Shown: positions 56,970 to 59,349 of the stretch, one piece after another
Numbering within the stretch: the first letter of the stretch is position 1
Layout of the letters: each line of letters starts with the position of its first letter
Assembly (NCBI GenBank): GCA_018003015.1
Contig: JAGNEZ010000002.1
Location: 62,001 to 126,000, forward strand
Direction of reading: 5' to 3'
Length of the DNA: 64,000 nucleotides
From: Phycisphaerae bacterium
GTDB lineage: Bacteria > Planctomycetota > Phycisphaerae > UBA1845 > PWPN01
Notes under the pieces: generated by a model
Database searches by the model: none
Told to the model about the DNA's origin: nothing
Seen by the model: the letters and a program-made list of their open reading frames with translations, nothing else
Translations under genes and position numbers: made by a program

Positions 56970-57773
56970 TCACGCTCTGCGGCACCGGACGATCAAGGTG
57001 TAGGCGATGACCCGCGAGTCGGCCAGACCCGGCTGGCGGGCGAGGGCTTCATCGCTGGCGCAAGGCTCGGCCAGTCGCTCAATGGCGAAGCCAGCGTCCA
57101 GCAGCAGATTCAACCAGGCGCTCAGCGTGCGGGTGAAACGCGGGATGCGAAACTCGGGCAGCTCGGCCTTGAGCTCCTCGGGTGTGTTCGAGAAGATCCA
57201 TTGCTCCATCTCACCGTGTAGTTCCTGGAAGTAGTCGCCGCATTCCATGGCGATCCTGTTCCCCTCCTCATCGAGGATCCACTTCCATCGGGGCGTGGCA
57301 AAGCACGGATGACTGATCGAGAACTGCAGAAAGCCGCCCGGTTTCAGGACCCGGTGCACCTCGGGCATTACCCGTTCGTGTTCGGGCATGTCCATGAAAC
57401 TCATGGTTGCCATTGCGAAGTCGAAACTCTCCGCCGCGAAGGGCAGTTCGACCGCGCTGGCCCGAAGGTAGGAGATGTAGAGGGGCAGGTCCCGCTCGTA
57501 AGCGTGAGCCTGCTGAACGAAGATCCGCGAGATGTCGAACGCCGTCATCCGCGCGCCCTTGCCGGCCACGAGGCGCGTGTTGTAGCCTTCGCCGCAACCG
57601 ATGTCCAGCCCGTGCAGACCGGCCACCTCCGGAAGCACCTCCAGGAAAGCCGGCGTATTGACGTAGTCCCGCAGCAGGTCGCAACCCATCCGCGTGAGCC
57701 GCGTCCAGGCGGCGGCGTTTTCGTCCCAGATGCGCCCAACGTCACCGTGATTCACGTGCGCTCTCCTTGCCAT
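56970..57773 (-). CDS. SAM-dependent methyltransferase (class I)
   Basis: A 267-residue Rossmann-fold methyltransferase. ATG 57773 has AGGAAG 7 bases upstream; a longer frame upstream runs through an AT-rich operator-like region and is ignored. Motif I GLHGLDIGCGEGYNTRLVAG (near residue 55), acidic residue in TAFDISRIF (motif II), and ASAVELPFAAESFDFAMATM (motifs III/IV) are as in the Methyltransf_11 family. The C-terminal region ELPEFRIPRFTRTLSAWLN could bind a hydrophobic substrate. Substrate unknown. First gene of the minus-strand cluster. Confidence 0.85.
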   Translation of the reverse strand: MARRAHVNHGDVGRIWDENAAAWTRLTRMGCDLLRDYVNTPAFLEVLPEVAGLHGLDIGCGEGYNTRLVAGKGARMTAFDISRIFVQQAHAYERDLPLYISYLRASAVELPFAAESFDFAMATMSFMDMPEHERVMPEVHRVLKPGGFLQFSISHPCFATPRWKWILDEEGNRIAMECGDYFQELHGEMEQWIFSNTPEELKAELPEFRIPRFTRTLSAWLNLLLDAGFAIERLAEPCASDEALARQPGLADSRVIAYTLIVRCRRA

Positions 57774-57851
57774 CTTTAGCTTCCTGGAGGTTGGATCCAG
57801 GTCTTCCTTCTTCCCACGGTTTCCTGTCTTCCGGCCTTCATGGCTGGCCAA

Positions 57852-57888
57852 TAACATATAACCTATTGTAACATAATTGGTTATGTTA
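57852..57888. promoter_or_regulatory. AT-rich palindromic operator-like site
   Basis: TAACATAA (57869-57876), TTGG, TTATGTTA (57881-57888) is a perfect 8-base-arm palindrome, with a further half-site TAACATA at 57852-57858. It is strikingly AT-rich in GC-rich surroundings and lies between the methyltransferase gene and the rtcB remnant, which are divergent. Spacing and repeat number suggest a dimeric regulator binding site, perhaps a relic of rtc control. Confidence 0.5.
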
Positions 57889-57970
57889 ATACAGGTCATG
57901 GCTGGCCGGTCCAAGCATGCTCGGGGCCAATCCGGGTCATTGTCCCGTTGTTGTGACGTTGCACGAATGA

Positions 57971-58333
57971 ACAGAGCTTGGGCAGATGCCTTGTGTGACC
58001 GACGTGGTCCTCAATCCCGATACTTACTGCGGCTTCGGGCACCGATCGGCTGTGTGCTGGTTTCACCCACGCACATCTATCCCGGCCCGGTTGGCGTGGA
58101 CATCATGTGCTCGATGAGTTTGCCACAGTTGGATCAGAAGGCGATTGCGGGGTCTTTTTGATGAAGAAGACATCTTGACCAACTGCCGGCGGTACCCTAA
58201 GGACGAGGCCCCGGCAGTGTACAAGGATTTCGACGAGGTGCTGCGCTCCGTGACCGCCGCAGGCTTGGCGATGGACGTGGCACGGCTGAAGGCCAGGTTC
58301 GTGGTCAAGGACGCGGACAAGGTGGATGATTGA
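57971..58333 (+). pseudogene. rtcB: rtcB remnant: frameshifted and internally deleted RNA ligase gene
   Basis: Frame 1 (from 57971) reads ELGQMPCVTDVVLNPDTYCG, then FGH, as in the RtcB N-terminal region. A one-base loss near 58040-58045 shifts to APIGCVLVSPTHIYPGPVGV, then DIMCSMSLPQLD, which ends in TGA at 58161. A third piece, in another frame to 58333, reads DEAPAVYKDFDEVLRSVTAA, then ARFVVKDADK, matching the RtcB C-terminus. Some 300 or more central residues, including metal ligands and the guanylated His, are missing. Its stop overlaps the rtcA ATG (TGATG), preserving the classic rtcBA order. Confidence 0.85.
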
Positions 58334-59349
58334 TGCTTACCGTTGATGGTTCGGCTGGTGAAGGCGGCGGCCAGATTCTGCGGTCGTCGCTGGCGTTGTC
58401 GATGCTGACCGGCACGCCGTTCAGGATCGAGAGGATCCGGGCGGGCCGGTCGAAGCCCGGCTTGATGCGCCAGCACTTGACGGCCGTTCAGGCGGCTGGG
58501 CAGATTTCGGGGGCAGAACTTAGCGGCGCGGCCATCGGGTCGAGCCAGGTCACGTTTCGGCCCGGCCGGGTCGAGCCGGGTGAATACACGTTTTCGGTGG
58601 GAACGGCTGGGAGTGCCACCCTCGTGCTGCAGACCGTTTTGCCGGCGTTGCTGACGGCATCGGGTCCGTCGACGCTGACCTTCGAGGGCGGGACGCACAA
58701 CCCGTTCGCGCCGCCGTTCGATTTCCTGGCCAAGGCGTTCCTGCCGATCGTCAACCGGATGGGGCCGAAGGTGACTGCTACCCTGGAGCGGTTCGGGTTC
58801 TATCCGGCTGGTGGGGGGCGGTTCACGGTTGCCGTGGAACCGGCCGCCAGACTGAAGGGGATCGAGCTGCTCGAACGGGGTGTGATTCGAAGCCATCGGG
58901 CCAGAGCCCTGATCGCCCACTTGCCGCAGACGATCGCCGAGCGGGAGATCGACCTGTTGCGGCGGCGGACCGGCTGGGCGGCCTCGGACTACGCCATCGA
59001 GGGCGCGGGTAAGGCTCAGGGACCCGGGAACGTCGTCCTGATCGAGGTGGAGTGCGAGCATGTGAGCGAAGTTTTCACCGGCTTCGGGGAGGTGCGGCGC
59101 AGGGCGGAGGCGGTCGCAACGCAAGCTCTGCAGGCGTACCAGCGCTACCTGAAGGCGGAGGCGCCGGTCGGCCCATACTTGGCCGATCAGGTGATGCTGC
59201 CCTTGGCCATTGCCGGCCGGGGGGCGTTCATGACCATGCCCCTGACGCTGCATTCGACCACCCACGTCGCGTTGATCAGGCAGTTCCTCGGGATCGAGAT
59301 GCAGGTGGAAAACGTGGACGGCGATCGATGGCAGGTCGGCGTGGGCTGA
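58333..59349 (+). CDS. rtcA: RNA 3'-terminal phosphate cyclase
   Basis: A 338-residue enzyme that converts RNA 3'-phosphate ends to 2',3'-cyclic phosphates through an adenylated His intermediate. It starts MLTVDGSAGEGGGQILRSSL, the family opening, followed by IRAGRSKPGLMRQHLTAVQA. The C-terminus carries LHSTTHVALIRQFLG, which contains the catalytic His region. Complete and of normal length. ATG 58333 overlaps the stop of the rtcB remnant. With rtcB broken, the cyclase no longer has its usual ligase partner here unless another copy exists elsewhere. Confidence 0.93.
   Translation: MLTVDGSAGEGGGQILRSSLALSMLTGTPFRIERIRAGRSKPGLMRQHLTAVQAAGQISGAELSGAAIGSSQVTFRPGRVEPGEYTFSVGTAGSATLVLQTVLPALLTASGPSTLTFEGGTHNPFAPPFDFLAKAFLPIVNRMGPKVTATLERFGFYPAGGGRFTVAVEPAARLKGIELLERGVIRSHRARALIAHLPQTIAEREIDLLRRRTGWAASDYAIEGAGKAQGPGNVVLIEVECEHVSEVFTGFGEVRRRAEAVATQALQAYQRYLKAEAPVGPYLADQVMLPLAIAGRGAFMTMPLTLHSTTHVALIRQFLGIEMQVENVDGDRWQVGVG

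Follow-up and report, generated by a model that had tools for sequence, protein, structure and literature searches.

Decay of the operon ligase gene rtcB beside an intact RNA cyclase gene, rtcA, in a Phycisphaerae bacterium

What becomes of an enzyme that modifies RNA ends when the ligase encoded beside it decays? The physiological reason for the RtcA cyclase is, to our knowledge, still unsettled, and one locus in the window analysed here, a stretch of DNA of 64,000 nucleotides, poses the question directly: an intact rtcA follows a wrecked rtcB (57956-58333) of the kind found in rtcBA operons of Planctomycetota. A preliminary description of this DNA took the locus for an operon caught after loss of its ligase, and argued that the remaining cyclase would make ends without resealing them and has an independent role. 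PMC8131947 describes RtcA as turning 3'- or 2'-phosphate RNA ends into 2',3'-cyclic phosphates, 2'-phosphate ends as not joinable by RtcB, and E. coli RtcA as able to adenylylate 5'-phosphate ends of both RNA and DNA. The features of the locus, in window coordinates, are as follows.

56970-57914, minus strand: SAM-dependent methyltransferase (Methyltransf_11, by Pfam), the divergent upstream neighbour, collinear in the sister species
57821-57955, no strand: non-coding stretch 5' of the remnant, no counterpart in the sister species by sequence comparison
57956-58039, plus strand: rtcB remnant, first piece, residues 48-75 with one internal stop (tblastn, 43%, linked E 2e-14)
58039-58134, plus strand: rtcB remnant, middle piece, residues 76-107 in another frame (tblastn, local comparison)
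58129-58158, plus strand: rtcB remnant, residues 436-445 in the frame of residues 76-107, the deletion junction (70% over 10 residues)
58157-58333, plus strand: rtcB remnant, C-terminal piece, residues 445-502 and stop (tblastn, Pfam)
58333-59349, plus strand: rtcA, 338 aa, intact frame, active-site His at residue 307

The cyclase gene bears no sign of damage. Its product matches the Pfam RTC domain (PF01137) at full length, with 265 bits over residues 9-325, and the insert domain (PF05189) with 49 bits. His307, whose position we take to be that of the AMP-carrying nucleophile, lines up with the corresponding His in E. coli RtcA (1qmh), and all 15 aligned RtcAs have it; cyclase function is predicted for this protein. 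The other RtcAs of the same family (f1) share 65-91% identity with it and keep the invariant residues. As the preliminary description had it, rtcA is intact and overlaps the stop of the remnant: the TGA (58331-58333) ends on the first base of the ATG (58333-58335), and in two relatives (L101, L128) rtcA is likewise overlapped by an intact rtcB of the operon type.

The remnant was traced by tblastn with the intact operon-type RtcB of a relative from the same order (L047, G029). The middle piece matches over residues 76-112 (58039-58149, 78%, E 2e-14) and the C-terminal piece over 58157-58330 (81%, E 1e-23); by Pfam the latter reaches 30.2 bits, over the RtcB cut-off of 27, and the former 19.7 bits, under it. 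Residues 48-107 are fused in frame to residues 436-445, a match that has E 6 alone but is collinear. Since the middle frame continues into these residues, the deletion is an internal one that kept the frame; it took ~330 codons (~990 nt), and Leu-Asp is common to both sides of the junction. The joining of the pieces by a deletion, proposed earlier, is thus confirmed, running from residue 107 to residue 436. The pieces themselves were also correctly recognised, by tblastn and Pfam alike, but they lie in two frames, not three: the first and last share one and the middle piece has another, so that the reading frame is broken both before and after the in-frame junction. Likewise, a remnant is present where the earlier account placed it, but homology starts near 57956 and not at 57971. 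Upstream of 57956 nothing can be recognised of residues 1-47 or of the start codon. With those residues and residues ~108-435 absent, no full-length RtcB (PF01139) frame is left, and the alignment places the metal- and GMP-binding motifs GGGNHF, SHCGSRG, ISHN and NHGAGR in the deleted region. Of the rtcBA operon, rtcA alone is intact here. The remnant's last codons contain AAGGTGG, which, judged by eye, is likely the ribosome-binding site of rtcA; a site of this kind inside the stub might account for the survival of the rtcB 3' end.

Upstream, a 12-nt direct repeat, TCATGGCTGGCC, occurs in two copies (57838-57907) that bound a 46-nt AT-rich segment (57850-57895), itself carrying the 8-bp inverted repeat TAACATAA-TTGG-TTATGTTA. 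The inverted-repeat pattern is found at this one place in the genome (G000) and nowhere in the sister species; the repeats were considered as a possible footprint of a mobile element. No rtcR-like regulator occurs among the neighbour genes examined.

The sister species (G001), which belongs to the same genus, provides the closest comparison. Its flanks are collinear with the window, for 2821 nt (94%) towards the methyltransferase and for 3167 nt (90%) from the rtcA ATG onward, and between them 105 unrelated nt stand in place of 512 window nt that include the whole remnant. A comparison with close relatives, which the preliminary description had suggested, therefore finds no remnant at this place and an intact rtcA, 90.8% identical to the one described here. 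Substitution patterns suggest that the sister species lost its own rtcB separately and completely; comparison of the two loci shows that two congeneric species are without the operon ligase, each in its own way, and that both keep the cyclase. Between them, rtcA has a dN/dS of 0.16 (NG86) or 0.10 (YN00), lower by both methods than four neighbouring genes (0.18-0.35 and 0.13-0.28, respectively).

An assembly collapse or sequencing error that masks an intact rtcB would, in principle, give the same picture, and the genome is known from a single assembly of 144 contigs, a 6.86-Mb draft that is 98.7% complete. We regard this as extremely improbable: the remnant combines several separate lesions with missense changes at invariant residues, rtcB is missing from the same site in the sister species, and the four RtcB matches in the assembly include no operon-type RtcB elsewhere.

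How old is the decay? Over 65 positions that are invariant in 16 intact operon-type RtcBs (16 of 22 candidates, six having been missed by a string filter), the remnant is changed at eight, whereas each intact protein has 0.56 private changes on average. The changes fall at 5 of 13 positions in the first piece, 2 of 22 in the middle piece and 1 of 30 in the C-terminal piece, although the first ten aligned positions of the first piece are weak and two of its five changes may reflect misalignment. The mean dN between remnant and intact genes is 0.179 for the C-terminal piece, with 4 of 19 intact genes higher, and 0.116 for the middle piece, with 4 of 18 higher (19 and 18 of 21 intact genes being used); for both pieces it is still inside the intact-gene range. 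With an rtcA dS of 0.29-0.40 between the two species, drift of the remnant lies below the neutral expectation, which suggests that the decay is probably younger than their split. The scant decay of the C-terminal piece may reflect this youth, or constraint on the stub. Should the loss be that recent, the dN/dS signal of rtcA may largely predate it, and this species by itself would not prove purifying selection after the loss.

A search of the rest of the genome for a second rtcB, also suggested at the outset, recovered an intact gene on contig C16 (~C16:11015-12433; L007:5016-6434). It encodes 472 aa and lies directly 3' of a gene that we take from its sequence to be queA, on the same strand and unlinked to rtcA. 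The product is a full-length RtcB (Pfam, 274 bits), and alignment with P. horikoshii RtcB (1uc2) places in it the motifs DxxC, GNHF, H(S/T)GSRG, HN and HGAGR, presumably with their catalytic roles. Its dN/dS between the two congeneric species, 0.06-0.10, indicates strong constraint, and RtcBs of the same type, at 53-62% identity, adjoin rtcA in five of 80 named loci from other lineages (L072, L086, L089, L091, L133). Motifs, constraint and adjacency together make this protein plausibly the ligase of RtcA. A cyclase left without any ligase is in any case ruled out in this genome by the intact 472-aa RtcB, and the expectation of ends that are made and never resealed is left unsupported. Elsewhere in the assembly, contig C134, on which a 734-aa serine recombinase and a transposase-like ORF are also encoded, breaks off within a second RtcB gene of this type; its C-terminal end is present (L006, 4815-4998, minus strand), with 81% DNA identity to the C16 copy.

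The same disjunction of ligase and cyclase is seen more widely. Among 61 genomes (this one and 60 relatives), RtcA is found in 22 and some RtcB in 56. Operon-type RtcB is assigned to 13, by sequence check in seven and by Pfam score alone in the other six; rtcA accompanies it in seven of the 13, on the same contig in six of these, and is missing from the remaining six, again by Pfam score (G018, G022, G032, G041, G043, G052). Conversely, 15 genomes, this one included, have rtcA without an intact operon-type rtcB, and 14 of them have another RtcB. The exception without any RtcB, G002, is 84% complete in ~1010 contigs. In the 80 named RtcA loci, drawn from the GTDB species set, the RtcB near rtcA is of the operon type in 15, of the 472-aa type in five and another RtcB in 29; one locus has a C-terminal stub, eight have too little upstream sequence, and 22 have none, meaning no RtcB within ~6 kb on the same strand where 3 kb or more of upstream sequence was available. 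The stub (L066, -1072 to -959) comprises just ~40 C-terminal RtcB residues 5' of an intact rtcA, and a similar stub of 43 residues precedes an intact rtcA in G053 (L044, oriented -754 to -626).

These labels were placed on a finished tree of 36 rows, hand-picked around the planctomycete part of a 96-row tree made by a quick method; L060, L068 and L097, which apparently duplicate contigs of G050, G030 and G056, respectively, enter each tree once. On the starred branches of the 36-row tree, the "none" label must have changed at least 11 times and the "operon" label at least eight times, and the RtcB labels are clustered no more than shuffled ones. At least 11 forced changes mean that the pair separates repeatedly: to judge from these sequences, rtcB has been lost from beside rtcA, or parted from it, on several occasions rather than in one old event; transfer of rtcA may contribute alongside loss. 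In the same tree the five full-length f1 RtcAs (this one and those of G001, G002, G006 and G010) form one clade with support of 100/97, and none of these five genomes has an intact operon-type rtcB.

Several of these loci show variation of another kind. Of 22 loci with an operon or a stub, eight (L047, L055, L139, L068, L065, L057, L044, L066) have at least 597 nt between rtcB and rtcA, with differing ORFs inside: DUF5677 in L047 and L055; in L044 and L139, a similar protein pair that contains an R-N-F-L-A-H stretch; and, for the remaining ORFs, no Pfam match. The gap is a variable gene slot within an RNA-repair operon. A HEPN-like identity of its genes was considered and is unconfirmed, Pfam giving DUF5677 for two of seven and nothing above cut-off for the other five. 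In G035 (L053, G035:C39, ~2372-2506), a displaced C-terminal piece of main-type RtcB lies ~0.9 kb 3' of a full-length rtcB and may be the scar left by an insertion at that gene's 3' end. An apparently frameshifted rtcA in G057 was considered as a mirror case and rejected, the split being a run of N.

We think it probable that the locus records a young and ordinary loss of an operon ligase, after which RtcA was retained and probably works with the second RtcB. In outline, the ligase of an rtcBA operon decayed in place, through the in-frame deletion, loss of any recognisable 5' end and two frame changes; rtcA would now be read from the ribosome-binding site within the surviving rtcB 3' end, and selection would keep RtcA for the conversion of 3'- or 2'-phosphate RNA ends into 2',3'-cyclic phosphates. 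Sealing would occur in trans by the 472-aa RtcB beside queA, which is our conjecture, and the loss would probably postdate the split from the sister species, whose own rtcB seems to have gone separately.

Two other accounts of the persistence of rtcA deserve to be weighed against this. RtcA might do a job that needs no RtcB, its cyclic or adenylylated ends being used, for instance, as signals, caps or marks for processing, and rtcB would then be dispensable. The 22 loci without a nearby RtcB, the conservation of the f1 RtcAs and the adenylylation of 5'-phosphate RNA and DNA ends by E. coli RtcA (PMC8131947) all speak for such a job, but another RtcB accompanies rtcA in 14 of the 15 genomes, so that these offer no clean case of RtcA without RtcB, the one genome with none (G002) being incomplete; we consider this account unlikely. 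Still less likely, in our judgement, is that rtcA is itself on the way out and has merely not yet acquired a lesion. That six of the 13 genomes with operon-type RtcB lack rtcA would fit, as would the youth of the rtcB decay and the state of G003, also of family f1, where rtcA is represented by residues 190-335 alone (L045, G003:C179, 1647-2084) despite more than 1.6 kb of contig upstream; this is a possible case of rtcA decay, and one from which it follows that rtcA too can be lost within the family. Against it stand a dN/dS of 0.10-0.16 between two species that both lack the operon rtcB, and the five full-length rtcA genes that group in one supported clade and have no such rtcB.

Loss of the operon ligase with RtcA kept and a second RtcB at hand thus remains our preferred reading. 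The original view of an operon caught after ligase loss with its cyclase intact is upheld by the remnant, the intact rtcA and the recurrence in relatives. Its corollary, an independent role for RtcA, holds so far for independence from the operon partner but not for independence from ligation; a ligase-independent role is possible. More broadly, though we would put this forward only as a doubtful suggestion, RtcA of Planctomycetota could be an autonomous RNA-end enzyme, kept through repeated rtcB losses and acting alone or by feeding any RtcB paralogue. Taken singly, the locus is an ordinary pseudogene, an instance of gene decay in an operon, and its value lies in the recurrent pattern. Lineages in which the operon ligase is repeatedly absent and the cyclase intact are natural test cases for RtcA: if it still matters there, it works with another ligase or alone. 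A literature search found no title or abstract that matches rtcB decay beside an intact rtcA, and the recurrent separation of the two genes merits a systematic survey.

Set beside known systems, the locus retains the plan of the rtcBA operons of E. coli and others, with RtcB followed by RtcA on one strand at tight spacing (here a one-base overlap), but its rtcB is wrecked. Its cyclase matches E. coli RtcA (1qmh) over the full length, with 314 bits and the active-site His aligned, and differs in being encoded without an intact operon ligase. The queA-side paralogue, for its part, belongs to the RtcB family and has the catalytic motifs of 1uc2, yet shares only ~27-31% identity with the operon type over long matches.
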